A stretch of DNA of 39,202 nucleotides from Chitinophaga pinensis (lineage in GTDB: Bacteria > Bacteroidota > Bacteroidia > CAMBQF01): assembly GCA_945869825.1 (NCBI GenBank), contig CAMBQF010000009.1, forward strand, positions 1 through 39,202, read 5' to 3'. Below, piece after piece: positions 5,972 through 34,569 of this stretch. The notes under the pieces are model-generated. The model was not told where the DNA came from. It saw only the letters and a list, made by a program, of their open reading frames with translations, and ran no database searches. The stretch's first letter is position 1, and every line of letters begins with the position of its first letter. The position numbers and the translations under genes were made by a program.

Positions 5972-7354
5972 ATGCAGCTAAAAACACGTTTAACACTTCA
6001 GTTTTTGATTGCCGTAGCCCCCATACTGCTAATTAGTTTCGCGGTAATTTATTGGTCGTCAGCAAAATACAGGCATAATGAGTTTTACGAGCGTTTACAA
6101 AAGAGGGCGCTAACCACCGTCGAGTTTTTAACTAAGGTTGACCAGATAGACTCTACACTACTTAAGGTAATAGACCGTACGCAAAAAGACAACCTACCCA
6201 AAGAAAACGTTACAGTGTATAACTACCTGAACCAGAAGTTATATACAAATAATGACTCGGTTTTTTTTGATGTAGATAAGCAGCTTATTGATGATATCAG
6301 GCTGAACTCGCCAATGCGGTTTACACAAAAAGGCTACGAAATTATTGGCCTTACCTATAACGATAAGTATAACCGTTTTATAATAATAGCCGGCGCAAAA
6401 GACCTTTATGGACTATCAAAACTGAGCAACCTGCGAAACACCCTTTTTCTCCTGTTTTTTATAATTGTAGGCATTACCGCATTAATAGGCTGGCTATACT
6501 CATCAAGGGCATTAAAACCCATATCAAATGTAGTAAGCAAAGCCGAAAAAATATCTGCCAACAACCTTAGCGAGCGCCTGACACCACCTAAGTATAATGA
6601 TGAGATTGGAAAACTGGTAAGCGCGTTTAACACCATGCTGGGGCGTATAGAAGATGCATTTAAAATACAGAAACTATTTGTTGCAGGTGCATCGCACGAA
6701 TTAAAAAACCCCTTAACGGTAATTACTACACAGCTGGAAGTATCGGCTATGAAAAACCGTACCACCGAGGAATATAAAGAGACCATAAAATCGGTACTGG
6801 AGGATATAAAAGAGTTAAACAGCCTTACTACACAGTTGATTGATTTTGGCCGCTTATCGCAAGAAAGTATTGACATTGATTACAAACCACTGCGAATTGA
6901 CGAATTGCTTAGCGACTTTACTGAAAGCTTTGCCAAACGAAATAAACAATCTGCCATCAATTATAAAATAGAAATTTTGCCCGATGATGAAAACAGGCTT
7001 GTATTGGCTATAAACAAAGCACTGCTTACTACCGCTTTTACCAACCTGGCTGACAATGCCTGCAAATTCTCGCCCGACAAAAAAGTTGATGTACGCTTGC
7101 GAGCAGAAAAAACTGCAATAGAAATACTTTTTATTAATAACGGCCCTGCGATTCCCGAAGAAGACAGGTCGTTTATTTTTGAACCGTTTTACCGCTCCAA
7201 ATCATCTTTAGCCGTGCAAGGGCATGGCATTGGGTTGGCATTGGTATCAAAAATTGTAACCCTGCATGGTGGTACTGTTTCGTTAGACGATTATTCTGCC
7301 GGCCACGTAGTTTTTAAAGTGCGTTTTGAAAGGGATAATATCAACCAGATTTAA
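5972..7354 (+). CDS. Two-component sensor histidine kinase
   Basis: 460-residue inner-membrane kinase. TM1 at ~11-28, a periplasmic sensor of ~125 residues with no recognised domain, TM2 at ~156-178, then HAMP (~180-232). HisKA has phospho-acceptor H242 in SHELKNPLTV. The HATPase domain shows the N-box N362 (NLADNACKFSP) and G-box GHGIGLALVSKI (417-428). It starts on the base after the regulator's stop, so translation is coupled. It ends convergently with the next gene: the stop codons of the two strands share TTAA at 7351-7354. Confidence 0.93.
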   Translation: MQLKTRLTLQFLIAVAPILLISFAVIYWSSAKYRHNEFYERLQKRALTTVEFLTKVDQIDSTLLKVIDRTQKDNLPKENVTVYNYLNQKLYTNNDSVFFDVDKQLIDDIRLNSPMRFTQKGYEIIGLTYNDKYNRFIIIAGAKDLYGLSKLSNLRNTLFLLFFIIVGITALIGWLYSSRALKPISNVVSKAEKISANNLSERLTPPKYNDEIGKLVSAFNTMLGRIEDAFKIQKLFVAGASHELKNPLTVITTQLEVSAMKNRTTEEYKETIKSVLEDIKELNSLTTQLIDFGRLSQESIDIDYKPLRIDELLSDFTESFAKRNKQSAINYKIEILPDDENRLVLAINKALLTTAFTNLADNACKFSPDKKVDVRLRAEKTAIEILFINNGPAIPEEDRSFIFEPFYRSKSSLAVQGHGIGLALVSKIVTLHGGTVSLDDYSAGHVVFKVRFERDNINQI

Positions 7355-7932
7355 GCCATTACTCGCTTAGCATTTCTCCATGCTATAAGGTAGTACATAC
7401 CTATTAACAAGCCTATGTATATTACCAGATTAATAATATCAATTGTAAACGGATGATACATTGTCCATGATGATGGGAGATAATCTCTATTCAGGCTTAT
7501 TACAATAATAACATAGAGCTCGAAAAAAGCAGGAATAAAAAGGAAAGGCAGTATCCATGCTGAATGGCGGATGCGTTTAAACCAAAGCAGATTGGGCAAT
7601 AGTATTGAGTTGACAATCATATACCAATAAGTAAACCAGTAAGGACCTGTGAACCTATTCATAATGGCGTATTGCTCGTATTCCACACCCGACATCCACG
7701 ATAGGTAAAGCTCTATAATGTACCAAACAGCATAAGCTATATAGAAAATAAGAAACAGGTTATTCGCCGCTATAATCCACTTAAGCAAGTTGGTTTTAAA
7801 GTCCCCTTTTTTAATTAGATAGTAACCCAGGCAAACCCCAACAAAAAGAAACGATCCGTCGGATACGCAATTGAATATAGGATTGAATAAGGCAAATTTT
7901 AAATCCATCGGGATAAATATAGAAAATAACAT
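7351..7932 (-). CDS. Multi-TM membrane protein of unknown function
   Basis: 193-residue, highly hydrophobic protein with about six membrane helices and many aromatic residues (GPYWFTYWYMIVNSILLP around 96-113). Bacteroidota genomes hold many such small integral membrane proteins; I cannot name a family. M9 (codon at 7908) is an equally likely start, since the first eight residues (MLFSIFIP) add little. It converges on the histidine kinase with overlapping stop codons. Its downstream neighbour is on the opposite strand, so it is a single-gene unit. Confidence 0.6.
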   Translation of the reverse strand: MLFSIFIPMDLKFALFNPIFNCVSDGSFLFVGVCLGYYLIKKGDFKTNLLKWIIAANNLFLIFYIAYAVWYIIELYLSWMSGVEYEQYAIMNRFTGPYWFTYWYMIVNSILLPNLLWFKRIRHSAWILPFLFIPAFFELYVIIVISLNRDYLPSSWTMYHPFTIDIINLVIYIGLLIGMYYLIAWRNAKRVMA

Positions 7933-7980
7933 CCACGCTTGGTGAGATAGTCAGCACGGCGCTTTTTAATAAAAGCTTGT

Positions 7981-8003
7981 AGTCCCGCCTACGCGGGAAT
8001 GAC
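7981..8003. repeat. Dispersed palindromic repeat (TCCCGC-CTAC-GCGGGA type)
   Basis: TCCCGC (7983-7988) pairs with GCGGGA (7993-7998) around CTAC and is followed by ATGACGA, the form of a REP-like palindrome found in many bacterial genomes. It lies between sufS and the membrane-protein gene and may serve as a 3'-end stem for the suf transcript. Confidence 0.6.
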
Positions 8004-8021
8004 GATGAACCTTTGCTGCCT

Positions 8022-9272
8022 TTACGATAGCATCTGCTTCGCTTTCAACAAACCCGCTACCAAGGCATCAACCTCGGCTTTGGTGTTGTAGAATGCAAAT
8101 GATGCACGCACGGTTCCGGGAATGGAGAAAATGTCCATGATGGGTTGGCAACAGTGGTGACCGGTGCGCACAGCTATGCCCAGTTTATCAAGGATAACAC
8201 CTATATCGTATGGGTGGATATCGCCCGCTAAAAACGACAATACGCTTACACGCTCTTTGGCATTGCCTATAAAACGCAGGCCTTCTATTGTGCTTAATTG
8301 TTCAACAGCATAGGCTACCAATTCGTGCTCGTAAGCAGCAATATTATCTATACCTATGGCATTGATATAATCTATCGCTGCACCAAGGCCAATAATGCCT
8401 TCTACGTGCGGCGTACCAGCTTCAAATTTAAAGGGAAGTTCGTTGTAGGTAGTTTTTTCTAACGTTACCTGCTTTATCATGCTGCCGCCGCCCTGGTAAG
8501 GGGGCATAGCATTTAGGTATTTATCTTTGCCATACAACACGCCAATGCCTGTTGGGCCAAATAGCTTGTGGCCCGAGAAGACAAAGAAATCGGCATCCAT
8601 AGCCTGCACATCAACCGCCATGTGTTGTATGCTTTGGGCACCATCAATAAGCACAGCAGCACCCACGACATGGGCTTTGGCAATAATATCGTTAACAGGA
8701 TTAACAGTGCCTAATGTATTAGAAACATGAACCAAGGCTACCAATTTGGTACGCTCGTTTAGCAGTTTATCGTATTCTTCTAAAATCAACTCGCCATTGG
8801 CATTGATTGGGATAACTCGGAGTATAGCGCCACGCTCTTCGCACAGCATTTGCCAGGGCACTATGTTGCTATGGTGTTCCATAGCGGTAATGATAATTTC
8901 ATCGCCGGCGTTTACAAAGGCTTTACCAAAGCTATGCGCTACAATGTTTATAGACTCTGTAGTACCACGGGTAAAGATTATCTCGTGTGTATGTTCAGCA
9001 TTGATAAAAGCACGGACACCCTCGCGCGCAGCCTCGTGCGCATCGGTAGCTTTTTGGCTAAGGTAATGCACCCCACGGTGGACGTTGGAATTGTAACCCT
9101 TGTAATATTCGACCATGGAGTTAATAACAGCGAGTGGCTTTTGGGCTGTTGCGCCATTATCAAGGTATACCAACGGCCTGCCATGTACGGTAGTTTGCAG
9201 GATAGGAAAATCTTCGCGAATTTTCTCCACGTCGAAGTTTGCTGTTGGTGCTATGTTGGTGTTGGTATTCAT
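8022..9272 (-). CDS. sufS: Cysteine desulfurase, SufS type
   Basis: PLP enzyme that takes sulfur from cysteine for Fe-S cluster assembly. Residues: PLP lysine K236 in FFVFSGHKLFGPTG, substrate/PLP region T130-A-M-E-H-H-S-N, and catalytic C374 in R-T-G-H-H-C-C-Q-P, followed by a second cysteine C375. At 416 residues it has full length and the group II (SufS/CsdA) form, without the long loop of IscS. It is last in the suf operon, 93 bp after sufD, with palindromic repeats in the gap. No sufE or sufU partner is in the window, so the sulfur acceptor is encoded elsewhere or bypassed. Confidence 0.96.
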   Translation of the reverse strand: MNTNTNIAPTANFDVEKIREDFPILQTTVHGRPLVYLDNGATAQKPLAVINSMVEYYKGYNSNVHRGVHYLSQKATDAHEAAREGVRAFINAEHTHEIIFTRGTTESINIVAHSFGKAFVNAGDEIIITAMEHHSNIVPWQMLCEERGAILRVIPINANGELILEEYDKLLNERTKLVALVHVSNTLGTVNPVNDIIAKAHVVGAAVLIDGAQSIQHMAVDVQAMDADFFVFSGHKLFGPTGIGVLYGKDKYLNAMPPYQGGGSMIKQVTLEKTTYNELPFKFEAGTPHVEGIIGLGAAIDYINAIGIDNIAAYEHELVAYAVEQLSTIEGLRFIGNAKERVSVLSFLAGDIHPYDIGVILDKLGIAVRTGHHCCQPIMDIFSIPGTVRASFAFYNTKAEVDALVAGLLKAKQMLS

Positions 9273-9305
9273 TTGTTAAACACCCCGCCTTCGCTTCGCT
9301 CGGCG

Positions 9306-9364
9306 CCCTCTCAAGAGGGGACATTTGCTCCCTCCCCTTTAAGGGAGAGGGTTGGAGAGGGGGT
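9306..9364. repeat. Palindromic repeat cluster in the sufD-sufS spacer
   Basis: CCCTCT (9306-9311) and AGAGGG (9314-9319) form one stem. At 9329-9364 lies a second C/G-rich palindrome ending GGGAGAGGGTTGGAGAGGGG. The second belongs to the same family as 11536-11571 and 36351-36379. It fills nearly the whole intergenic space inside an operon. Confidence 0.7.
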
Positions 9365-9365
9365 A

Positions 9366-10688
9366 CTAATAATTTATAAAACGTTGCGAGATGATGCTGT
9401 CTACATACTCGCGCAATGGTGCAATTTCTATATGGTTGATGATGTCGTTAGCGAAAGCATACATAAGCAAAGCCTTAGCATTGGTTTCGTCGATACCACG
9501 AGAGCGCAGGTAAAACATTGCCTCTGTATCTAACGAACCTGTTGACGAGCCATGCGAACACTTTACATCATCAGCATAAATTTCTAACTGCGGCTTGGTG
9601 TTTACCGTTGCCGTATCTGTCAGCAATATGTTTTTATTGCTTTGGTAAGCGTTGGTTTTTTGGGCGTCTTTACGCACAAATACCTTACCGTTGAATATAG
9701 CAGTGCCTTCATCGTCAACAATACCTTTATACAACTCGTTGCTGGTGCAATTAGGCGCGCGATGGTCTACAAGGGTATGGTTATCTACCAGCTGCTTGCC
9801 TACGGGCAAATACAAGCCGTAAAGTTCGGCGTGGCCGGCAGCACCGTTTAATGATATATTCAGGTTGTTGCGCACCCAACCTCCACTTAGGGTAATGTTG
9901 TTCGTGATGTAGTTGGCATTAGCCTCTACAAACACCTCAGATGTTAACACCTGGGCGGCATTGGTGTTGCCGTTTTGTATGCGGTAGTGCTTCAGGTTGG
10001 CATTATGGCCAACATACACTTCAGAAACGGTATTGCTAAGGGTGGTATTCTCCCCTTCTATTGATGCAAAAAACGAAACCAGTTCGGCCTGCGCAAAACG
10101 CTCTACCACAATAAGGTTGCGGCTTTGCAACAGTGTATTGTTTTTAGCTTTGCCGATATTCAACACCCAGATAGGCTTGGCTGCAACGGTTTTAGCGGCT
10201 ACATGAATATACACACCGTGGTGTGCAAAGGCCATGTTTAAGGCTGAGAAACCATCGGTTTCGCCGGTGGTGTAGTTTGTAAAATGCTTTTCAACCGTTA
10301 CGGGGTATTTCTCAAACGCATCGGTTAGCGAGCAAACGGTAATACCTTCTTCGGCGATGGTATCTGACAATTCATCAGAATACACGCCGTTTACCAATAC
10401 AATTTTGTGGGCATCTAAGCCTGTAACAAAAAGGCTGTCTACCGTCTCTTTATCTAACCTAGAATCGGGATTATAATCCAGTTCAAAATCAGTTCGCAAC
10501 AGGGTATCAACGTTGGCATATTTATATTCCTCATTACGTTTGGTAGGCAGGCCCAAGGCGGCAAAGCGTTGAATGGCTTTAGCACGCTGCTCGTTTACAA
10601 AAGCGTTGTTGCTTTTGTAAATTTCTGCAAACCTATCGTAAGCGGTTACAAACTTATCTTTCAAATTTATTTTTTCTGCTGTTTGCAT
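9366..10688 (-). CDS. sufD: Fe-S cluster assembly protein SufD
   Basis: Scaffold subunit of the SufBCD complex, a right-handed beta-helix protein that binds SufC and SufB in the cytoplasm. 440 residues. The conserved K-C-S-H-G-x(2)-T-G motif is present with C377 and H379; the histidine corresponds to the functionally important His of E. coli SufD. The C-terminal helical part (AKALLMYAFANDIINHIEI) is typical and binds SufC. The stop of sufC lies 2 bp before its ATG, indicating tight coupling. Confidence 0.95.
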   Translation of the reverse strand: MQTAEKINLKDKFVTAYDRFAEIYKSNNAFVNEQRAKAIQRFAALGLPTKRNEEYKYANVDTLLRTDFELDYNPDSRLDKETVDSLFVTGLDAHKIVLVNGVYSDELSDTIAEEGITVCSLTDAFEKYPVTVEKHFTNYTTGETDGFSALNMAFAHHGVYIHVAAKTVAAKPIWVLNIGKAKNNTLLQSRNLIVVERFAQAELVSFFASIEGENTTLSNTVSEVYVGHNANLKHYRIQNGNTNAAQVLTSEVFVEANANYITNNITLSGGWVRNNLNISLNGAAGHAELYGLYLPVGKQLVDNHTLVDHRAPNCTSNELYKGIVDDEGTAIFNGKVFVRKDAQKTNAYQSNKNILLTDTATVNTKPQLEIYADDVKCSHGSSTGSLDTEAMFYLRSRGIDETNAKALLMYAFANDIINHIEIAPLREYVDSIISQRFINY

Positions 10689-10690
10689 GA

Positions 10691-11449
10691 TTAGGCCAGT
10701 TCTGCAACTTCTTTCTTAATCCAATCGTAGCCTTTTTCTTCCAGTTCCAAAGCCAGTTCTTTTCCGCCCGATTTTACAATGCGGCCGTTGTACAATACAT
10801 GTACAAAATCAGGAACGATATAGTCTAACAAACGCTGGTAGTGCGTAATTACTACGGTAGCATTATCAGGGCTTTTAAGCTTATTTACGCCATTGGCAAC
10901 AATGCGTAAGGCATCAATATCAAGGCCAGAATCGGTCTCGTCTAATATAGCCAGTTTAGGCTCCAGCATAGCCATTTGAAGAATCTCGTTACGCTTTTTC
11001 TCTCCGCCCGAAAAGCCTTCGTTTACCGAACGGCTGGCCAGGTTAGAGTCCATCTCTACCAGGGCTTTTTTCTCGTTAAAGAATTTTAAAAACTCGCGGG
11101 CTTCCAACGCTGGTAAGCCACGGTGCTTGCGCACTTCGGCCACGGCCGTTTTAAGGAAGTTGATGTTTGATACACCTGGAATTTCTACAGGGTACTGGAA
11201 CGCAAGGAACAAGCCTTCGCGGGCACGCTCTTCGGGTGCCATATCTAACAGGTCTTTACCGTTAAAGGTAACTTCGCCATCGGTTACTTCGTAATCGGAG
11301 CGGCCGGCTAATACCGATGCTAAGGTACTTTTACCTGAGCCGTTAGGGCCCATAATGGCGTGTACCTCCCCTGCTTTTACCTCCAGGTTAAAGCCCTTCA
11401 AAATTTCTTTTTCCTCTATGCGGGCCTTTAAATTCTTTATTACTAGCAT
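10691..11449 (-). CDS. sufC: Fe-S cluster assembly ATPase SufC
   Basis: ABC-type ATPase that drives the SufBCD scaffold. 252 residues. Walker A is G-P-N-G-S-G-K-S-T (near residues 35-43), the signature is [13 protein letters not shown], and Walker B is [12 protein letters not shown] with the SufC-typical E-T-D-S-G. The H-loop is in [13 protein letters not shown]. It follows sufB after a 125-bp spacer full of palindromic repeats and precedes sufD by 2 bp. Confidence 0.97.
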
Positions 11450-11477
11450 TATCGTTTTTTATTTTTTGTGCTTAAAA

Positions 11478-11571
11478 AATCCCCCGTCTGCCGCCGTTAG
11501 CGGCATCCACCCCCTTTATAAGGGGGAGTTTTTTGCTCCCCTCTCCCCCGGGAGAGGGGTTGGGGGTGAGG
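11478..11571. repeat. Composite palindromic repeat in the sufB-sufC spacer
   Basis: Two units occupy the gap. The first (about 11478-11536) holds inverted C/G runs, with CCCCCTTTATAAGGGGG at its right end. The second (11536-11571) has a 10-bp perfect stem, 11538-11547 with 11550-11559, around CC, followed by TTGGGGGTGAGG. The latter is a recurring Bacteroidota intergenic repeat and has relatives at 9329-9364 and 36351-36379. It may act as an attenuating or RNA-stabilising stem within the suf mRNA. Confidence 0.7.
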
Positions 11572-11574
11572 CTC

Positions 11575-13011
11575 TTAACCTACGCTGCCTTCTAAGCTTA
11601 TGCTTAGTAGTTTTTGGGCTTCAACGGCAAACTCCATAGGTAGCTTGTTAAGCACCTCTTTGCAGTAGCCGTTTACAATCAAGCCAATAGCATCTTCGTT
11701 GCTTATGCCGCGTTGGTTGCAGTAAAATATCTGGTCTTCGCCAATTTTTGATGTGGTAGCCTCGTGTTCTACCATACCTGTTTTATTACCAATCTCGATG
11801 TAAGGGAAGGTATGCGCACCGCATTTATCGCCCATTAACAATGAGTCGCATTGCGAGAAGTTACGGGCATTTTCGGCCTTTTTGCCAATACGCACCAACC
11901 CGCGGTACGAGTTGTTACTTTTTCCTGCCGATATACCTTTTGATATAATGGTAGACTTGGTGTTTTTGCCAATGTGTATCATTTTGGTGCCGGTATCGGC
12001 CTGTTGCATATTGTTGGTAACGGCTACCGAATAAAACTCGCCGGTAGAGTTATCGCCTTTCAAAATAACACTTGGATATTTCCAGGTAATAGCCGAGCCG
12101 GTTTCTACCTGTGTCCACGATATTTTAGCGTTGGTTTCGCAAACGCCGCGCTTAGTTACAAAGTTGTAGATACCACCCTTACCGTCTTTATCGCCGGGGT
12201 ACCAGTTTTGCACGGTAGAGTATTTAATCTCGGCATTATCATGCGATATTAATTCTACAACGGCGGCATGTAGTTGGTTCTCGTCGCGCATTGGTGCGGT
12301 GCAACCTTCCAGGTAGCTAACATAGCTGCCTTCATCGGCTACAATAAGCGTACGCTCAAACTGGCCTGTACCCGCAGAGTTTATACGGAAATAGGTAGAA
12401 AGTTCCATTGGACAACGGGTGCCTTTTGGAATGTAGCAAAACGAACCATCAGAAAACACAGCAGCATTAAGGGCTGCGTAATAGTTATCGGTATAAGGTA
12501 CTACGCTACCCATGTACTTTTTAATCAGTTCGGGGTGTTCGTGCACGGCTTCGCTAAACGATGAGAAGATGATTCCCAGTTCGCCAAGTTTTTCTTTAAA
12601 GGTTGTTTTTACCGAAACACTGTCGATAACAGCATCTACGGCCACACCGGTAAGGCGCTTTTGCTCCTCTAACGATATGCCCAGCTTTTCAAATGTTTTT
12701 AGCAATTCAGGGTCTACCTCATCTAAGCTATTCAACACCTTTGTTTGCTTGGGTGCCGAGTAGTAGATGATATTCTGAAAATCGATTTTGGGGTACTGAA
12801 CATGTGCCCAGGTTGGCTCTTCCATTTTAAGCCAATGGCGGTAGGCTTTTAAACGGTACTCAAGCATCCACTCGGGTTCGTTCTTTTTTGCCGAAATAAA
12901 GCGTACAATGTCTTCGCTCAGGCCTTTGGGCGCGCTATCGGCCTCAATGTCTGTTACAAAGCCGTACTTATATTCCGACGACGTTATTTCTTCTAAAATA
13001 TCTTGGGCCAT
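11575..13011 (-). CDS. sufB: Fe-S cluster assembly protein SufB
   Basis: Core scaffold of SufBCD on which nascent Fe-S clusters are built. 478 residues, the usual length. The key cysteine is C431 in [10 protein letters not shown], equivalent to the essential Cys near the C-terminus of E. coli SufB. The flanking blocks [20 protein letters not shown] and [20 protein letters not shown] are diagnostic. It follows the A-type carrier gene by 21 bp. The order carrier-B-C-D-S is the standard suf order on this strand. Confidence 0.97.
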
Positions 13012-14569: not shown

Positions 14570-16183
14570 TTAATAAACAGACAGCTTTTTAACCACATAA
14601 TACATTTTATTAAATACCAACGTTACAAATAACGTTTGGTTACTTATACCAGCTGGCAAATCTATATCCTTATTATTTTTGCCTACATTGGTAGTTAAAT
14701 CGCCCTGCTTAATTAATTGCCCCGATGTATTTGTAATAAAATAAGTTACAGCATAATCTTTTGCTATATCAAATTTTACGCTAAAAGCTTTATCTGCAGG
14801 GTTAGGAAATAAATCAAAATCAAATTTATTAGCCCCGTCAATATTATTTAATACCATGGGGTCGTTGTTAATAAGACTAACGCGGTAAATGCTACTGCTT
14901 GCAGTAGTTAAGCCTGTTTGGTTATTACTAAACGCATTTATTGCCGTACTGTTTATTCCGCCAACAATATGACCCAGCACAATAGTATCCTGCGCAATTA
15001 AATTAAGATTGACAACATCAGAAGAAATGTAAGGCAGGTTTTGATTAACGATAAATTCTGAACCAGCACCCTGGAGCAAAGGCATTTCAACCGGCAATTG
15101 AAATTCATGCAACATATTGTCGCTATTGCGTGTTAAAAGGCTAATGGTTTTAACAAAAGGAACAAGGTTGTCTTGCACCATAACGCCATTTTGGTAATAA
15201 TACTGGCTTATTCCACCAAAGAACAATGTATAGTTTATATTAGAAAGACTATCATACATTGAGGCGTGCGCAGAATGGTAATTGCTAAGGTATTGGCTAA
15301 AGGATGTGATTGGGGTATAGCCATTTTCTGAAATATCTACAGGGTATAAATAAGGCAAATCGACATTAGACTGGAAGACCCCCGACGAAATAGTATAACC
15401 TGGTGTATTGCCCTGAAATATTTGCGGAATAAGGTTATAATCGCGGCGGTGCAAATGCACAGCATCTGTAATTGTATCGTAATTAGCATAGCTTAGCTGT
15501 GTGCCGCTATTATTAACAGTAAATTTTCTTATTTGATTTGTATATGTTTGAGTATATGTTGGGTTGCCCATTGGGTTATAGCGACCATTAAAATTATGCC
15601 CGCCTACTAAGTAAAATGTATTATTTATTTTACCTAATTGCCCCCCTGTAACAGCAAAATTGGTGTTTGATATTTGTTTAAAGTAAGGTGTAATTTCGAG
15701 GCCGTTAATAACAGCATCAATTAAGCCGGATACTTTTACTGTTGCCAGGTAAGGAAAAGTGATATGATTGTTAGCTGAAACTGAAAAAGCATAGCCCCCA
15801 ACAATATAAAGTGTATCATTATCCTGATAAAAACACATATTGGTAGATTGTAGTTGCTCTGCTAGGTTTGTTTGCAAACCAGCAACAGGTGCAGACCAAA
15901 CCTGGCCGCTGGCCACATCTGCCACATATATATTTGTATTGTTTTGCGATTGAGAAAAAGCATTAAAAGGCTGCCTTGCATGTATTCCATCTAAACGCCC
16001 ACCAATAAACAGCCATTTGCCATTATGCTGCGCGTGCACATAAGAGTGTATTCCGGGCATTGCGGGAATATCAACCTGCGACAATTGCACTGAATAGTTA
16101 AATGAATTTTGCCCCAACGCTGCACTAAAAAAAGCAAGCAGAACAAAAAACAAAAATTTTACTTTCAAATATTTCATAACCAT
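14570..16183 (-). CDS. T9SS-exported kelch-like secreted protein
   Basis: 537 residues: signal peptide (hydrophobic ~9-24, cut near AALGQNS), then a middle with several kelch-like beta-propeller strands of the form W-L-F-I-G-G-R, L-Y-I-V-G-G-Y, F-Y-L-V-G-G-H and L-F-F-G-G. From about 455 there is a type A T9SS sorting domain (LFPNPADKAFSVKFD, closing KKLSVY). It should be exported across the outer membrane and attached or released. Its ATG overlaps the stop codon of the upstream CstB-like gene (TAATG), so translation may be coupled. M3 is an alternative start. Function of the propeller is unknown. Confidence 0.75.
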   Translation of the reverse strand: MVMKYLKVKFLFFVLLAFFSAALGQNSFNYSVQLSQVDIPAMPGIHSYVHAQHNGKWLFIGGRLDGIHARQPFNAFSQSQNNTNIYVADVASGQVWSAPVAGLQTNLAEQLQSTNMCFYQDNDTLYIVGGYAFSVSANNHITFPYLATVKVSGLIDAVINGLEITPYFKQISNTNFAVTGGQLGKINNTFYLVGGHNFNGRYNPMGNPTYTQTYTNQIRKFTVNNSGTQLSYANYDTITDAVHLHRRDYNLIPQIFQGNTPGYTISSGVFQSNVDLPYLYPVDISENGYTPITSFSQYLSNYHSAHASMYDSLSNINYTLFFGGISQYYYQNGVMVQDNLVPFVKTISLLTRNSDNMLHEFQLPVEMPLLQGAGSEFIVNQNLPYISSDVVNLNLIAQDTIVLGHIVGGINSTAINAFSNNQTGLTTASSSIYRVSLINNDPMVLNNIDGANKFDFDLFPNPADKAFSVKFDIAKDYAVTYFITNTSGQLIKQGDLTTNVGKNNKDIDLPAGISNQTLFVTLVFNKMYYVVKKLSVY

Positions 16184-17550
16184 TATGCCAGAGCTTTATG
16201 CTTAAATTGATTAACAGCCACACTTAAATCAAACACCTGCTGACGAGAAGAAACAGCCGATGCAATAATGCTTGCACCAGCGGCACTTCTGTAACCACCC
16301 GCACAATGTACTAAAATTGGCTTATCTAATGGTATTTCTGCAACACGTTCTCTTAACTGGTGCAAAGGTATATTTATAGCATTGCTAAAAATAATATCAG
16401 ATTTTGTTTCAGAATAATTACGAATATCGATTATTGTAAAAGCATCAGCATTTTGCAGTAGTAAAGCCGAATTAAATAATGGCGATTCAGAGTCGCCAAG
16501 ATTTAAAACAAATGCCGTTTTAACCTGACTTTCGTACCCAATTTTAGCAATACGCTGCAATAATTGTTCAATCACCTCATTGCTTTCGGCTACCAGATAA
16601 AACTCTTCTCCAGGATTTACAATGCTCCCCAGCCATGTTTCAAATTTTACATCATCCATCAAATTAATGGAATTTTGCAAGTGAGATTGTTTAAATTTTT
16701 CTTGCGGACGTGTATCAATAATTAAAACATCTTTATTAAGCACAAAATCACAACCTGTATATGTAAACGGGGGCCTTGTTTCTATTGATGAAACAGCTGA
16801 ACTAAAAGAAGTTGCACCTTTTTTGTTTATACCAACATTGAAAGGAAAATACTTTGGAATAAATGGCTGGTCGGCCAGAAGCTGGTTAACAAAATCATCT
16901 TCAGATAATGGTTGCAGACTCCAATTCCCAATTTTTTCAGCACCCATAGTACTGCTGTTTTGCGAGCTTAAACCTTTGCCACATAAACTGCCTGCCCCGT
17001 GTGCCGGATAAACCATAACGTGGTTGGGTAATGCAATTAACTTATCTCTCAAAGAATGGTACATTTGCTTTGCCAATTGGCTGCGCGATGCGGTTATAGC
17101 TCCGGCTTCTTCGCGTAAATCGGGCCTGCCACAATCTCCTATAAACAAAGTATCGCCAGTAAAAACGGCTTGTTCAACCCCTTGTTCATCTACTGCTAAA
17201 ATACTGATACTATCAGGCGAATGCCCGGGCGTATTAATGGCCTTTAACTTTATTTTCCCTATCGAAATTTCATCCCCGTCATCAAATGTTTGATGAGGGT
17301 ATTCTGCCCCCACTAATTTACTTACATAAATTGTTGCACTTGTATAATTATGAATTTCTAAATGACTGCTAACAAAATCAGCATGAGGATGCGTTTCTAT
17401 TACCGATGTTATTTTTGCATTATGAGCTTTAGCGAAATTGTAATATGGTTCGGGATTTCTAGCTGGGTCGATAAGTGCAATTTCACCATCGCTAAAAATT
17501 GCATAAGAGTAATGCGCCAGATTTTTATCTTCAAATTGCTCTATAATCAT
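16183..17550 (-). CDS. CstB-like persulfide dioxygenase / rhodanese fusion
   Basis: 455-residue cytoplasmic enzyme for hydrogen sulfide detoxification. Residues 1-215 are a metallo-beta-lactamase fold with iron ligands H54-P-H56-A-D58, H110, D133 and H184, as in ETHE1-type persulfide dioxygenases, which oxidise low-molecular-weight persulfides to sulfite. Residues ~265-360 are a rhodanese-like domain without a catalytic Cys: the active-site strand reads FYLVAESNE. Residues ~365-455 are a second rhodanese with catalytic C416 in LVHCAGGYRSAAG. This dioxygenase-pseudorhodanese-rhodanese order is that of Staphylococcus CstB, which makes thiosulfate. The upstream TauE-like gene fits export of the product. 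Confidence 0.85.
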   Translation of the reverse strand: MIIEQFEDKNLAHYSYAIFSDGEIALIDPARNPEPYYNFAKAHNAKITSVIETHPHADFVSSHLEIHNYTSATIYVSKLVGAEYPHQTFDDGDEISIGKIKLKAINTPGHSPDSISILAVDEQGVEQAVFTGDTLFIGDCGRPDLREEAGAITASRSQLAKQMYHSLRDKLIALPNHVMVYPAHGAGSLCGKGLSSQNSSTMGAEKIGNWSLQPLSEDDFVNQLLADQPFIPKYFPFNVGINKKGATSFSSAVSSIETRPPFTYTGCDFVLNKDVLIIDTRPQEKFKQSHLQNSINLMDDVKFETWLGSIVNPGEEFYLVAESNEVIEQLLQRIAKIGYESQVKTAFVLNLGDSESPLFNSALLLQNADAFTIIDIRNYSETKSDIIFSNAINIPLHQLRERVAEIPLDKPILVHCAGGYRSAAGASIIASAVSSRQQVFDLSVAVNQFKHKALA

Positions 17551-17572
17551 TGTTTAAAATTTAATTTATTTA

Positions 17573-17620
17573 CAAATTTATATTTACTTCAAGCCTTATA
17601 CAGCAACAATTGTTACATAA
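17573..17620 (-). promoter_or_regulatory. Promoter and activator-like site of the CstB-like gene
   Basis: Plus-strand CAGCAACAATTGTTACATAA (17601-17620) contains the near-palindrome GCAACAATTGTTAC. Twenty bp downstream on the minus strand lies TAAATTTG (17580-17573), an exact -7 box, 22 bp before the ATG. The same motif with one change and the same 20-bp spacing precedes the TauE-like gene. The dyad form and position suit a Crp/Fnr-family activator; no such regulator gene is in the window. Confidence 0.65.
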
Positions 17621-17641
17621 GCCCGGCAAAAGCAAACCAAC

Positions 17642-18004
17642 TTATTTTTGAAACCACATTTTTATAGCTATAACTACCATTAATACAGCAAAAGCCCTTC
17701 TTAAAACATCTTGAGGAAACTGGGTTGCAAATTTTGCACCCAGATAACCGCCTGCAAAAAAGAAAACAGCAAGTATGGCCGCCGATTTAACATCAACAAA
17801 ACCCTTTTGGTAATACTGGTAAGCAGCTAAAGCGCCCACCGGAAAAACCATCATTAACAATGTGGTACCCTGTGCCATTTGCTGCGAAAAGCCAAGTAGC
17901 ATAACCAAGGCGGGAATAATTATAATTGCCCCGCCAAGGCCAAACATACCCCCCATTATACCTGCTGCAATGCCAATAAATGCAATTAATATGATGTTTT
18001 GCAT
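17642..18004 (-). CDS. Half-size TauE/SafE-family sulfite/anion exporter
   Basis: 120 residues with four membrane helices. The first carries the family's glycine-rich signature (GIAAGIMGGMFGLGGAIIIIP, residues 13-33), the second M-A-Q-G-T-T-L, and the third F-A-G-G-Y-L-G-A. Full TauE/SafE exporters have about 250 residues in two such halves. This single half, common beside sulfide-oxidation genes in Bacteroidota, probably works as a dimer. The substrate is inferred to be sulfite or thiosulfate from the adjacent persulfide dioxygenase. It has its own copy of the promoter motif. Confidence 0.85.
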   Translation of the reverse strand: MQNIILIAFIGIAAGIMGGMFGLGGAIIIIPALVMLLGFSQQMAQGTTLLMMVFPVGALAAYQYYQKGFVDVKSAAILAVFFFAGGYLGAKFATQFPQDVLRRAFAVLMVVIAIKMWFQK

Positions 18005-18029
18005 AGTTTAAACCTTAGTATTTGAAATG

Positions 18030-18077
18030 CAAAGGTTGGGCAAAGGCAAATTACACACAGCAACATTTGTTACATAA
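18030..18077 (-). promoter_or_regulatory. Promoter and activator-like site of the TauE-like gene
   Basis: CAGCAACATTTGTTACATAA (18058-18077) differs at one base from the copy before the CstB-like gene. AACCTTTG on the minus strand (18037-18030) is a one-mismatch -7 box at the same 20-bp distance, 25 bp before the ATG at 18004. Confidence 0.6.
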
Positions 18078-28137: not shown

Positions 28138-31100
28138 ATGAACCCAAATTATACATCAATAAAGGAAAAAGCAAAATACCTGGCTTGCCTTGTAGTAGCC
28201 CTGTTATGGGGCTCGGGTGTTTTTGCGCAGGCATCGTTTACGGTGTCAGACAACAGCCTGTTTCTTTGTGGCGGTACTACGGCTTCGGTACAGTTTACCA
28301 ATACCACAACAGGTGTACCCCCGGGCTGTACCTACCAGTGGAACTTTGGTGACGGCACCCCAGGCAGCACACAAACAAGCCCATCGTATGTATACAATAC
28401 GGCTAATACCTATACCGTTACTTTGCAGGTATTGCAGGGCGGAAACCCTATTAGCAGCGCTACACAAACAATAACCGTAGGCATTCCGGTAGCCTCATTC
28501 ACTGTTGCGCCACCGTCGGGCTGCCAGCAACAAACGCTTTTCCAGTTTACAAACCAGGTTGTAAATGCTGACTCTTTTGTCTGGAACTTTGGCGATGGTG
28601 TAATTTTATCTGATGTATACAACCCTACACATATTTATAACAACTTTAATCCAAACACCAATGTAAGCCTTTTGGTATATGTTGATGGTTTTACCAATGC
28701 ATGTGCATCGCAGGTGGTAGCTGTAAACGTACAACCCAAACCTGTTGCCAATGCTACTGCCAGCAGCACGGTTGTTTGCGACCCTAACGAGTCTATTAAC
28801 TTTATACAAACATCTACAAACGCTGCTACCCATTTTTGGGATTTTGGCGATAGTGCAACCTCTGCAATTGCAGCTCCATCGCACATATATGGTAGCTACG
28901 GAACCTTTACCGTAACCTACATTGCAACAGGTACAAGCGGATGTACAGATACTACACATTTTGATATTGAAATAACCAATGGCATTATTCCACAGGTTAC
29001 AGCATCAGTAGATACCGGCTGTAGCGCATTGCCCGTTAACTTTATATGTACCAATGTTGCCAATGCACAACAATATGTTTGGGATTTTGGTGATGGTTCA
29101 TCGCCCGTAACCACTAATACACCAAACGTTACACATGTATTTGTAAACAGCACCCAAAGCCCTGTAAGCTACAACGTATCGCTTACCACTGTTTTTGGTG
29201 TAGGTTCATCATGTAACTCATCTATAACCTTAAATAACTTTATTACAGTAAACCCACAACCTGTAAGCTCATTAACAGTAAGTTCTCCAACTGCTTGTGT
29301 ATTGGCCCCGGTAACTTATACCAGCACCTCTACCAACGCTGTTAGCTTTTTATGGAATTTAGGTAATGGTACCAACTCTACAGACCCGAACCCAACTGCA
29401 ACTTACAACAGCAGCGGTGCTTACAATGTTACTCTTATTACTACTAATACTTATGGCTGCCAGGATACCGCCGTTGTTACTAATGCTATAAACATAATAC
29501 ACGTTATGGCAGACTTTAACTCAACCAATACTACGGGCTGTACAGTTAATGCACAATTTATAAATTACAGCCAGGGAGCTACCGAGTTTAACTGGATTTT
29601 TGGCGATGGTACAACATCTAACATAGCTAACCCAACGCATTATTATAATTTACCTGGTGCGTATGATGTAACACTAATAGCCAGCAATGGCACTTGTGTT
29701 GACACATTGATACTAAATGATTTTATTAATGTAAACTATTTGACACCAAGCTACACAACTCCAACAATTCCATTTGCTGGCTGTGTAGGCATTGCCTCAA
29801 CTTTTCAGGCAAATAACCCCACTGCTGTAAGCTATGTTTGGAATTTTGGCGACGGCAACACAGGCACAGGTGCTAACCCAACCCACGTATATGAGCAACC
29901 CGGAAGCTATACTATATCATTAATAACTATGACAGCAGATAGCTGCCAGGAATTAATTTCTGATTTTGCCCAGATAGACGTTTACGGCGGCGAGCCTGAA
30001 GTTATAACTGTGAACCAAAGCTGTTTTGCCCCTTACACGGTATCGTTTGAAACTCCGAGCAATGGCATTAGCTACCAATGGAATTTTGGAGACGGGTCGC
30101 CAATAAACAACCAACAAAACCCAACCCACGTTTATGGTGAAGATGGGTATTACAACGTATCGTTAACGGTAATAACACCAAGCGGCTGTTTAAGCACTTA
30201 CAACGGCTTTAACCAGTTAGCCTTATTTCCATTTACTGCAGGCGCCGCATCAAGCTGCGAGGGCATTATGAATGGCCTTGTATCGGCTGAATTCAGGCCA
30301 ATACCTGAAAATGCAACATCGGTACAATGGTTTTTCAGCGATGGCCAAACATCAACCGAAATTGCACCTACACTGCAATTTGATACAACAAATGCAAACA
30401 TTACCTACACCGCTATTATTACCAACCAGTTTGGTTGCGTAGACACAGTAACAGCAGAAGTATGTGCAGACAGCCCACCGGCAATACCCCAACCTGTTGG
30501 ATGGGATGTTCCACCGGATACCAGCACTACAGACCCACAATACCTGATATCTGCATGTGCCCCATACCAGCTTACATTTAACAACCAGTTTACGTATGCC
30601 GACTCTGTAATTTGGCACTTTGGCGATGGTTACTCATCAACAGACCTATCGCCAACACATGAGTATGGCTCATCGGGCACCTATGTAGTTTATACTGAAG
30701 TATGGTACGATAATTATAATACTTACGATGTTGTTTACCAGCCTTACATATATGATATTGGAGGGCATACGCCTACTATAACGGTATCGCAACAAAATTT
30801 TTGCGATAGTATTGTGGTGCTATTTTCAGGCAACTCGCCCGATGCTGTTTCGTGGCTATGGCTTTTGGGTAATGGTGATACTGAAACATCGCAAAGCTTT
30901 CAATATACCTACAACTCAACAGACCAAACTTACCATGTGCAGTTAACCACAGTTGACTCTGAAGGTTGCCCGGGCTCTGCCACCAGCAGTGTCTACTCTC
31001 CTATTACCGACCCTGTATTTAACTATCAAACAGTACTATGTAATGCACCACTAAATATAGCCCATAATCTTGATTCAGCATTTACATACATTTGGGATTT

Positions 31101-34100
31101 TGGCGATAGCACAACATCAACTGATATGTTGCCTGTACACCAATATGCCAACCCAGGCACATATAATGTTAGCCTGCACCTTACTGATGCTTTAGGATGC
31201 CCACATGATTATGCATTAAACCCCGTAACGGTGTACTTACCTACCGCCGGCTTTAATGCCAGCACCCATGCAGGTTGCGCACCTCTTACTGTAAACTTTA
31301 ATTCTACATCAATAAACTATTCGCCTGGCAATACACACTATTGGTTTTTTGGCAATATGGCTGTTATAAATAACAACGGCACTACAACCACAAGCTACAC
31401 ATTTACCCAACCTGGCGACTATGCCGTAAAACTGCAGGTATTTAACGTAAATGGCCAAAACTGCTCAGGCACATACATTGATACAATACACGTTTATGGT
31501 GCTAATGCTGATTTTGCATTTACCCAAAGCAAATCGTGTTTTCAACCCGATATTGATGTACAATATGCAGACAACAGTGATAATGCCGTTAGTTGGAACT
31601 GGGATTTTGGTGATGGCAATACATCTGCCTTACAAAACCCAATGCACACCTTTACTTATATGCCAACCAGCAATGTAACACTTGCAATAACAGATATAAA
31701 CGGCTGTGTTGATACTGTAAGTAAACCCAACATTAGTCTGTTTGCTGCTAACTATACCCTAAACAACAATACGGTATGCGGCTTTACACCAATAAACTTT
31801 AGTGTTACAGCTAATAACCCTAACTATAGCACCGTTTGGGACTTTGGAGACAACACAGCACCCGGCAGTGGCAACACAGCATCTCACATATACGGTTTAG
31901 ATGGTATTTACAATGCTACTGCGTATGTAACATCAGCCGATGGTTGTGCAGATACGATAGTTAACCAGGTTAACATAGTACAACCTACACCTTTATTCTC
32001 TTCAAACTCATCGGTTACCTGTGCTCCATCAAATGTTATATTCAATAACCTTTCATCTGCACCTTTAGGCTCTACTTATATTTGGGATTTTGGCGATGGT
32101 ATAATTACCAATAATAACCCTATTGTAGCACATACCTACATTACCCCTGGTGTATATGATGTCAGCTTAACGGTAATCTCTCCGCAAGGCTGTACTGCCG
32201 ACACTTCATATATTGATTATGTTACCGTACTGGGCCCTATTGCCAACTTTTTTGTAGCTAACACAAACGCTTGCGAAAATTTTCCGGTAGACTTTATTAA
32301 CCTAAGTACCAACGTAGACCATTTCTCTTGGTATTTTGGTGATGGTACATCAGACACTACTAACTTTAACACATCTCATGTTTTTACAAATGCAGGCAAC
32401 TATTTTAGCTCTATAGTGGTATATGATTCGGTAGGATGCTCAAGCTCTATGACATTGCAAAACCCTATTGTAATTAACAACATGCCTAATGCTGATATGG
32501 TTGTTGATTACCCATCGGGTTGCGCACCATACCTGCCACAGTTTTACAACAACTCTACAGAAGCTACAACCTACACCTGGACATTTGGCGACGGTAACTG
32601 GAGCAACGACTCGTTACCGCTGCATACTTACACTAACCCCGGTGTATACGATATAGTTTTAGTAGTTGGTAATGGCACCGGTTGCCAGGATAGTTCTTTT
32701 GCACAAATAACTGTAAATGCACCTCCGGTAGCATCGTTTACTATGGCTGTTATTGATAGTACCTGCCAGGGCATAACCTTTGGTTACAACAACACATCGC
32801 AAACCGATAGTGTAGCTAACTTTAAGTGGCTGTTTAACTATAGCGGACCATCGGCAGATATGACCCCGCCAAACTACACTGCAGACACCAGTGGCTTGTA
32901 TACCGCCTGGCTAATGGTTATAAATACCTATACCGGCTGCCAAGACACAATATCGCAAAGTTTATACATAACCGTACCCGGCCAACCCGGGGGTACTTTT
33001 GCAACAGCAGACACCATTGGCTGCGGGCAGGTGGTTGCTAACTTTAACCTGAACTATGTAAACACAACCAATATTGAAGTAAACTATGGTGATGGTGTTA
33101 CTGATACCGTATTTACCCCGCAACATACTTATAGCCTGCCCGGCACATACAACCCGTTTGTTGTGTTGTACAACCAATATGGCTGTATTGATACTTTATA
33201 CGCAAGCCCTATTACAGTAGTGCCAATTCCGGTAGCGGCATTTGTGGCCGATACTACTACCGGCTGTGCAGGTATTTTGGTAAACTTTACCAACAACTCA
33301 TCAGCGTTAGCAAACCCAACCTATAACTGGAATTTTGGAAATGGTCAAACATCGGCCCTGGAAAACCCACAAGGCATAGCTTTTACTAACCCGGGGGGTT
33401 ACAATGTATCGCTAATAGTTACCAATACCAACGGCTGTGCCGATACATTAACCCAAAACGCCTATATTATTATTGCTGATACTTTACCACCAGCAAACAT
33501 TCCATTGCGCAGGGTAACAGTACTATCTGAAACAGCAGTAAAAATAGAGTGGGCAGCATCTGCCGCGTTTGATTTTGGCAGCTATGATATTTTCCGCTTT
33601 GATGGTACAACCTACCAGCCAATTGCAACTATCAGCAACATAAACCAAACATCGTTTATTGATAACAGCGGCCTGGCAACACTTGCAAACTCTTACTGCT
33701 ACAAAATTGGTGTAACAGACCAGTGCGGATACACCAAAGGCATAGACAGTGTTGAGGCACATTGCACTATTGAGCTTACAGCTAACCTGTTACCAAGTAC
33801 CGACAGGTTGCTAAAATGGAACCCATACGGTGGCTGCACAGTTGATTACTACGAAGTATACCGCACACAGGCCAATGGCTGGAACGATACAACCGCGGCA
33901 TACTTAATTGCTACGGTGCCTGGCGATGTTACCGGATACCTTGACCAGGATAAAATTTGCCCACGCGAATACAAATACCGTGTGCGTGCAGTTAGCTTGT
34001 GTGGCGGCACTTTATATTCTTTAAGCGATACTGCCACATCGCCACTGCCTAAAATTGATTTTACCACCCTGCCTGCACACGTAGTGCGCACCACTGTGGT

Positions 34101-34569
34101 AGACAACCAGTTTACCCGCACCGAGTGGAAAGCACCCTACGCGCCTGAGTTGGTAAGTTACTACACTGTGTTCCGCTCTAGCGATAGTGTTAGCTACCAA
34201 AGTGTGGGCCAGCTAACAGGGCCATTTACTGCTGCCGATACACTACAGGCTTATGATGATTGGGATGCCAGCATACAAAGCATTAAGTACTATTACCGTA
34301 TAGAAACCAACAGCGTTTGTAACGATAAGAGCTACACTGGCAAAACAGGCGATAACATTGTGCTAAAAGCCAATATAGACCATTCTGCTTACGAAGTAAA
34401 ACTGGAATGGACACCTTACCAAAGCTGGGGTCCTAACGGTGTTGACCATTATATTATTGAATGGCAGGACGAAGCAGGGGTATGGCATGTGCTAGACCTA
34501 CCTGCAAACCAATACCAGAATAATGAAATACCGGGTAACGACCCAACAAGCTATACCGCGCCGTATTAA
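28138..34569 (+). CDS. Giant PKD-repeat surface protein, lacking a T9SS domain
   Basis: 2143 residues. Signal peptide ~12-30 (LACLVVALLWGSGVFA). From ~33 to ~1780 about 21 PKD-like repeats of 75-100 residues, each with a W-x-F-G-D/N-G core and a later P-x-H-x-Y turn (for example YVWNFGDGNTGTGANPTHVY). Most repeats start with a G-C or x-C step and many end with G-C-x-D-T, giving a regular cysteine ladder likely to form disulfides. From ~1785 three or four fibronectin-III-like modules follow. The protein stops inside the last one (NEIPGNDPTSYTAPY) with no CHU_C or type A domain. It is probably an adhesin-like filament; the C-terminus looks truncated. Confidence 0.85.
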   Translation: MNPNYTSIKEKAKYLACLVVALLWGSGVFAQASFTVSDNSLFLCGGTTASVQFTNTTTGVPPGCTYQWNFGDGTPGSTQTSPSYVYNTANTYTVTLQVLQGGNPISSATQTITVGIPVASFTVAPPSGCQQQTLFQFTNQVVNADSFVWNFGDGVILSDVYNPTHIYNNFNPNTNVSLLVYVDGFTNACASQVVAVNVQPKPVANATASSTVVCDPNESINFIQTSTNAATHFWDFGDSATSAIAAPSHIYGSYGTFTVTYIATGTSGCTDTTHFDIEITNGIIPQVTASVDTGCSALPVNFICTNVANAQQYVWDFGDGSSPVTTNTPNVTHVFVNSTQSPVSYNVSLTTVFGVGSSCNSSITLNNFITVNPQPVSSLTVSSPTACVLAPVTYTSTSTNAVSFLWNLGNGTNSTDPNPTATYNSSGAYNVTLITTNTYGCQDTAVVTNAINIIHVMADFNSTNTTGCTVNAQFINYSQGATEFNWIFGDGTTSNIANPTHYYNLPGAYDVTLIASNGTCVDTLILNDFINVNYLTPSYTTPTIPFAGCVGIASTFQANNPTAVSYVWNFGDGNTGTGANPTHVYEQPGSYTISLITMTADSCQELISDFAQIDVYGGEPEVITVNQSCFAPYTVSFETPSNGISYQWNFGDGSPINNQQNPTHVYGEDGYYNVSLTVITPSGCLSTYNGFNQLALFPFTAGAASSCEGIMNGLVSAEFRPIPENATSVQWFFSDGQTSTEIAPTLQFDTTNANITYTAIITNQFGCVDTVTAEVCADSPPAIPQPVGWDVPPDTSTTDPQYLISACAPYQLTFNNQFTYADSVIWHFGDGYSSTDLSPTHEYGSSGTYVVYTEVWYDNYNTYDVVYQPYIYDIGGHTPTITVSQQNFCDSIVVLFSGNSPDAVSWLWLLGNGDTETSQSFQYTYNSTDQTYHVQLTTVDSEGCPGSATSSVYSPITDPVFNYQTVLCNAPLNIAHNLDSAFTYIWDFGDSTTSTDMLPVHQYANPGTYNVSLHLTDALGCPHDYALNPVTVYLPTAGFNASTHAGCAPLTVNFNSTSINYSPGNTHYWFFGNMAVINNNGTTTTSYTFTQPGDYAVKLQVFNVNGQNCSGTYIDTIHVYGANADFAFTQSKSCFQPDIDVQYADNSDNAVSWNWDFGDGNTSALQNPMHTFTYMPTSNVTLAITDINGCVDTVSKPNISLFAANYTLNNNTVCGFTPINFSVTANNPNYSTVWDFGDNTAPGSGNTASHIYGLDGIYNATAYVTSADGCADTIVNQVNIVQPTPLFSSNSSVTCAPSNVIFNNLSSAPLGSTYIWDFGDGIITNNNPIVAHTYITPGVYDVSLTVISPQGCTADTSYIDYVTVLGPIANFFVANTNACENFPVDFINLSTNVDHFSWYFGDGTSDTTNFNTSHVFTNAGNYFSSIVVYDSVGCSSSMTLQNPIVINNMPNADMVVDYPSGCAPYLPQFYNNSTEATTYTWTFGDGNWSNDSLPLHTYTNPGVYDIVLVVGNGTGCQDSSFAQITVNAPPVASFTMAVIDSTCQGITFGYNNTSQTDSVANFKWLFNYSGPSADMTPPNYTADTSGLYTAWLMVINTYTGCQDTISQSLYITVPGQPGGTFATADTIGCGQVVANFNLNYVNTTNIEVNYGDGVTDTVFTPQHTYSLPGTYNPFVVLYNQYGCIDTLYASPITVVPIPVAAFVADTTTGCAGILVNFTNNSSALANPTYNWNFGNGQTSALENPQGIAFTNPGGYNVSLIVTNTNGCADTLTQNAYIIIADTLPPANIPLRRVTVLSETAVKIEWAASAAFDFGSYDIFRFDGTTYQPIATISNINQTSFIDNSGLATLANSYCYKIGVTDQCGYTKGIDSVEAHCTIELTANLLPSTDRLLKWNPYGGCTVDYYEVYRTQANGWNDTTAAYLIATVPGDVTGYLDQDKICPREYKYRVRAVSLCGGTLYSLSDTATSPLPKIDFTTLPAHVVRTTVVDNQFTRTEWKAPYAPELVSYYTVFRSSDSVSYQSVGQLTGPFTAADTLQAYDDWDASIQSIKYYYRIETNSVCNDKSYTGKTGDNIVLKANIDHSAYEVKLEWTPYQSWGPNGVDHYIIEWQDEAGVWHVLDLPANQYQNNEIPGNDPTSYTAPY

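Follow-up and report, generated by a model that had tools for sequence, protein, structure and literature searches.

Two neighbouring genes on the minus strand of a 39,202-nucleotide stretch of Chitinophaga pinensis DNA (the window) encode proteins that resemble a persulfide-processing enzyme and a sulfur-compound exporter, and each gene is preceded by a nearly identical short sequence. Are these sequences regulatory sites, which protein acts on them, and to what signal does it respond? The answer developed here, to which we assign a probability of about 80%, is that they are sites centred at -41.5 for a Crp/Fnr activator of the type of P0003, a protein encoded on another contig of the same genome. 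This activator would control a reactive-sulfur and thiol-repair regulon, with persulfide as the probable input through Cys79 together with Cys85 and Cys86.

Two sites and their promoters

The relevant features of the window are as follows.

14570-16183, minus strand: gene for a 537-aa protein without a Pfam match; overlaps the stop of the cstB-like gene by one base
16183-17550, minus strand: cstB-like gene; the 455-aa CstB-like protein matches 3tp9 and 3r2u over its full length
17573-17580, minus strand: -7 box of the cstB-like gene, TAAATTTG
17603-17616, minus strand: predicted Crp/Fnr-type site of the cstB-like gene, GTAACAATTGTTGC within TTATGTAACAATTGTTGCTG, centre at -41.5
17642-18004, minus strand: tauE-like gene for a TauE/SafE-type half-size transporter of 120 aa (PF01925, E 3.9e-23)
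18030-18037, minus strand: -7 box of the tauE-like gene, AACCTTTG, with one mismatch to TAnnTTTG
18060-18073, minus strand: predicted Crp/Fnr-type site of the tauE-like gene, GTAACAAATGTTGC within TTATGTAACAAATGTTGCTG, centre at -41.5

Judged by its sequence, the CstB-like protein has the architecture of CstB, with a metallo-beta-lactamase/persulfide dioxygenase domain and two rhodanese domains; the first rhodanese domain lacks the active-site cysteine and the second has one (HCAGGYRS). The gene for the 537-aa protein is possibly co-transcribed with the cstB-like gene. Fe-S cluster assembly genes (SufB, SufC, SufD, SufS-like) lie at 7351-13011, some 3 kb downstream of the cstB-like gene and on the minus strand like it, with no site found in front of them. 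On the plus strand, 28138-34569 encodes a 2143-aa protein that contains many PKD repeats.

The 20-mers CAGCAACAATTGTTACATAA (17601-17620) and CAGCAACATTTGTTACATAA (18058-18077) are identical at 19 of 20 positions, as a previous sequence-only reading of this DNA had reported. They are the sole matches in the window when up to three mismatches are allowed; the expected number is 0.03, and two copies appeared in none of 100 shuffles, which bears out the earlier view that chance is a very unlikely origin. Read on the minus strand, both sites are TGTAAC-N4-GTTGC and lie 22 nt 5' of a TAnnTTTG-type -7 box. The gap is 20 nt when counted from the 20-mer and 22 nt when counted from the 14-bp core; the fixed 20-bp spacing claimed before thus holds at both sites, with one mismatch in the second box. 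The box occupies -12 to -5 in a flavobacterial map of transcription starts (PMC9723704), and the centre of the core is therefore at -41.5, not at about -44 as first proposed. Transcription is predicted to start near 17568 for the cstB-like gene and near 18025 for the tauE-like gene. Neither window promoter shows a -33 TTG at the ordinary spacing.

The near-palindrome GYAACAnTTGTTRC of the sequence-only reading survives in part. Its dyad, GTAAC-N4-GTTRC, is conserved, together with a preferred 5' T (present in 46 of 58 sites); the remaining letters of the window 20-mer are not kept at sites elsewhere.

Spacing and targets across genomes

The pattern GTAAC-N4-GTTRC-N23-AnnTTTG has 72 matches, distributed over 52 of the genomes of 198 relatives, against 8 for a reversed control pattern. 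When the spacer is left free from 8 to 38, and a repeated element in genome G114 is counted once, the 198 genomes give 49 matches at 22 nt, 19 at 23 nt and about 1.7 at each other spacing (P about 5e-53 for the 22/23 peak over background). This peak is the strongest single result of the analysis and indicates that the spacing itself is under selection. It also yields a usable promoter rule: TGTAAC-N4-GTTAC placed 22-23 nt 5' of TAnnTTTG. The G114 sequence, GTAACTGATGTTACCCTTTTTTAATAATGTAAATTTG, is found at eight places in that genome, several of them at contig ends, and is probably a repeated mobile element. Genes that stand behind a site in relatives (L117, L118, L122, L128, L129, L136) include, from the look of their sequences, DsbD-like, outer-membrane-efflux-like, DUF302-like and DUF983-like genes.

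The site of the cstB-like gene has the same placement before orthologs from other families. Promoter duplication or chance could by itself have made the two window copies alike, with no regulatory meaning, and the 20-mers do match beyond the conserved core. However, the core and its spacing are kept in other families and the spacer sequence is not; these cross-genome tests, along with the chance expectation of 0.03 per window, contradict that explanation, which can practically be dismissed.

Sites centred at -41.5 or -42.5 stand in dozens of unrelated promoters. This is the position of a class II activator, and it bears on a further possibility, namely that the sites are repressor operators which are released on sulfide. 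The known ArsR/CsoR-type persulfide regulators are repressors, and the downstream half-site does touch the -33 region, but repression would be at odds with the position of the centre and with the lack of an ordinarily spaced -33 TTG in both window promoters. It is very unlikely indeed. With activation preferred, both 20-bp copies would be bound by a dimeric member of the Crp/Fnr family centred at -41.5; the downstream half-site would overlap the -33 region of a sigma-A promoter, giving class II activation.

The genome to which the window belongs contains five perfect site-plus-box matches, each of which precedes one or more sulfur or thiol genes; a scan for the motif before TAnnTTTG boxes had been advised by the sequence-only reading. 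The perfect targets and two near-perfect ones are listed here.

Window, perfect: CstB-like gene
Window, perfect: TauE gene
Contig C23, perfect: thioredoxin reductase gene (trxB)
Contig C32, perfect: thioredoxin gene
Contig C26, perfect: operon for a short membrane protein (DUF6132-like by eye, not by Pfam), an 83-aa protein and a rhodanese-thioredoxin protein
Contig C16, near-perfect: DsbD-like gene, spacer of 23
Contig C4, near-perfect: second rhodanese-thioredoxin operon, one mismatch

Both congeners, G001 and G002, have counterparts of the DsbD-like site on C16 and the rhodanese-thioredoxin site on C4, and the thioredoxin site is found in G001 too, with one mismatch. The trxB site lacks conservation in G001 and in most relatives tested, being found in few others; trxB is therefore a lineage-specific or doubtful member of the regulon. 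Its box ends four bases 5' of the ATG (L096 5409-5457, C23), which predicts a leaderless transcript. The sequence-only reading had proposed a small sulfide/persulfide regulon. The sulfur targets agree with this, but the description is too narrow, since thioredoxin, thioredoxin reductase and DsbD are also among the targets.

Other exact cores annotated in the genome lie inside genes, with the exception of one on C65; cores on C102, C115 and C134 are outside the annotated set. The core on C65, GTAACATAGGTTAC, is a perfect one and stands 5' of the gene for a Thioredoxin_9 protein (L180 1501-1514); the only good box is 49 nt from it, which puts the centre near -68.5, and there is none at the right distance. 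When two mismatches are allowed, the genome gives 39 matches against 32 for the control. As this is no enrichment, loose matches are excluded as evidence unless backed by position or conservation. Strict matches to the 20-mer motif on C8 (inside a coding region), C55 and C118 were set aside. The genome's own cstB paralog, on C167, has a weak site with 4 mismatches; 5% of shuffles are equally good. On C77, GTAACATATGTTAA occurs with the correct spacing (L022 1501-1544) between divergent genes for a Crp/Fnr protein and a FAD-type oxidoreductase, and may belong to another Crp/Fnr protein.

A candidate regulator and its cysteines

Eight Crp/Fnr genes are carried by this genome. One of these, on contig C53, encodes P0003, a protein of 215 aa with cNMP_binding and Crp helix-turn-helix domains (PF00027, PF13545, PF00325) which does not reach the cut-off of any NCBIfam model. 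Two rhodanese genes follow it, so that there is indeed a Crp/Fnr gene beside other sulfur genes, as the sequence-only reading had suggested looking for. A degenerate site, GTGATATTGGTTAC-22-TACTTTTG, lies at the exact spacing between crp and the two rhodanese genes, and likewise in G002; no site was found at the start of the P0003 gene itself.

In relatives, the neighbour of the TauE/CstB genes is a Crp/Fnr gene. A P0003 ortholog is located directly upstream of TauE-CstB in G050, G007 and G014, and a site follows the crp stop codon immediately in about 20 genomes. Of 80 named Bacteroidota loci retrieved with a P0003 alignment, 29 have TauE close to crp and 31 have CstB there. These loci contain 38 site-plus-box matches (control: 0); a perfect one is nearby in 24 of the 80, and most have none. 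Four loci share the arrangement of the window, in which TauE and CstB are each preceded by a site of their own: L226, L236 (Sphingobacterium olei), L237 and L262 (an Aquimarina). P0003 orthologs occur in 47 of the 52 genomes with a site-plus-box, compared with 117 of 198 overall (Fisher p 2.4e-8). Among the five genomes without one, G180 carries a fragment of an ortholog, cut off at the end of a contig, which raises the count to 48 of 52.

P0003 is thus the likely regulator of the window sites. It would bind TTATGTAACAAnTGTTGCTG and, as its orthologs would do in relatives, switch on the CstB-like persulfide dioxygenase/rhodanese, the TauE exporter, the rhodanese-thioredoxin proteins, thioredoxin, thioredoxin reductase and DsbD. 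The spacing peak, the co-occurrence and adjacency of the P0003 family, and the sulfur and thiol targets, as three independent lines of evidence, all support the Crp/Fnr class II reading offered earlier, from which we infer binding and activation. The window CstB-like gene has no close ortholog in G001 and G002, where only paralogs of about 35% are present; its relatives at 67-70% belong to other families and are linked to crp there. The TauE-CstB unit is likely to have arrived with its own sites and to be served now by the resident regulator on C53.

A different Crp/Fnr protein, either an HcpR-like nitrosative-stress regulator or another of the eight, might bind the sites instead. The identical site and spacing occur before hcp in family f32, which has no P0003 ortholog (L114, G073); the motif is therefore not unique to the P0003 family. 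The same arrangement precedes another short gene in this P0003-less family (L115, G033). An HcpR-type regulator there, it is suggested, uses the same DNA word. Against such a regulator in the present genome, about 20 genomes have a P0003-type gene beside the site, the occurrence of P0003 orthologs correlates with that of the site, and hcp is missing here, a search for the Prismane family having given no match; this last point weakens the HcpR explanation in particular. Overall, control by a Crp/Fnr protein other than P0003 is very unlikely.

The cysteines of P0003 are at positions 32, 79, 85, 86 and 102 only. Among 118 orthologs, Cys79 is present in 118, Cys85 in 110 and Cys86 in 107; eight lack Cys85, most having Gly there, and Cys79 alone is therefore universal. 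Cys79, Cys85 and Cys86 fall within the cyclic-nucleotide pocket segment, at the place that accommodates the nucleotide phosphate in cAMP-binding relatives. A [4Fe-4S] FNR has an N-terminal cysteine cluster and one central Cys; P0003 has no such N-terminal cluster, which does not agree with an FNR of this type. In cAMP-dependent CRP, a phosphate-binding Arg precedes a Ser in the pocket; the P0003 family has an invariant Ser92, but position 91 is K, P, R, T or A, which does not agree with a cAMP-dependent CRP. The input is probably the modification of Cys79, together with Cys85/Cys86, by persulfide or polysulfide. In the activator FisR, reactive sulfur is sensed by three cysteines, between which di- and tetrasulfide links form (PMC9774590); this makes a similar mechanism plausible for P0003.

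The same site and P0003-type activator could also respond to general thiol oxidation (peroxide, HOCl, electrophiles or disulfide stress) rather than to persulfide, in which case the sulfur genes would be one branch of a thiol-redox regulon. Such a signal fits the presence of thioredoxin, thioredoxin reductase, DsbD-like and thioredoxin-fold proteins among the targets. However, TauE, CstB and rhodanese form the conserved core of crp partners throughout the class, and as a target trxB is lineage-specific; we consider general thiol oxidation unlikely, and thiol/persulfide sensing the likely input of the P0003 family.

Relation to known systems

Class II control by Crp/Fnr proteins is already known, as are persulfide regulons under other regulator families. 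The bacterial persulfide sensors in the literature searched belong to the CsoR, ArsR, FisR, MarR, OxyR and LasR families. No Crp/Fnr persulfide regulon in Bacteroidota was found there; subscription papers were largely outside the coverage of this search, and absence is not proven. Recurrence of the site arrangement across the class beside the gene of a cysteine-rich regulator suggests an undescribed route of reactive-sulfur sensing. Somewhat better than even, in our estimate, are the odds that the P0003 family consists of undescribed Crp/Fnr activators whose cyclic-nucleotide pocket now serves as a cysteine-based sensor of reactive sulfur, and which govern thiol repair and the detoxification of sulfide and persulfide in much of the Bacteroidota. 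If true, this would explain how sulfide detoxification is controlled in a large group of Bacteroidota from sediment, soil and water, would link it to repair by thioredoxin and DsbD, and would offer an example, open to testing, of how a pocket for cyclic nucleotides was converted into a thiol switch.

The nearest solved relative of P0003 is 3dv8, the structure of a Crp/Fnr regulator with no assigned function, which has cysteines at the positions of Cys79 and Cys85. Its alignment with P0003 alone extends over only about 160 residues, and it has Ile in place of Cys86. HcpR of Bacteroides and Porphyromonas, which acts in nitrosative stress, belongs to the same protein family and phylum. It controls hcp and binds heme (PMC13370916), whereas the genome studied here has no hcp and the targets are sulfur and thiol genes.

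The persulfide regulons of CstR, SqrR, BigR and FisR resemble the proposed one in their targets (persulfide dioxygenase, rhodanese and TauE) and in the cysteine-based sensing proposed; FisR is likewise an activator with three cysteines (PMC9774590). Their regulators, however, belong to the CsoR, ArsR or sigma-54 families and not to Crp/Fnr.

Class II activation is exemplified by E. coli CRP and FNR acting at -41.5. The systems share a two-fold symmetric site at that position and a regulator with cNMP_binding and HTH_Crp domains. They differ in the half-site, which here is TGTAAC and not TGTGA or TTGAT; in the promoter, which here is of the Bacteroidota TAnnTTTG type; and in the pocket, which here contains cysteines and does not conserve the arginine that binds the cAMP phosphate.
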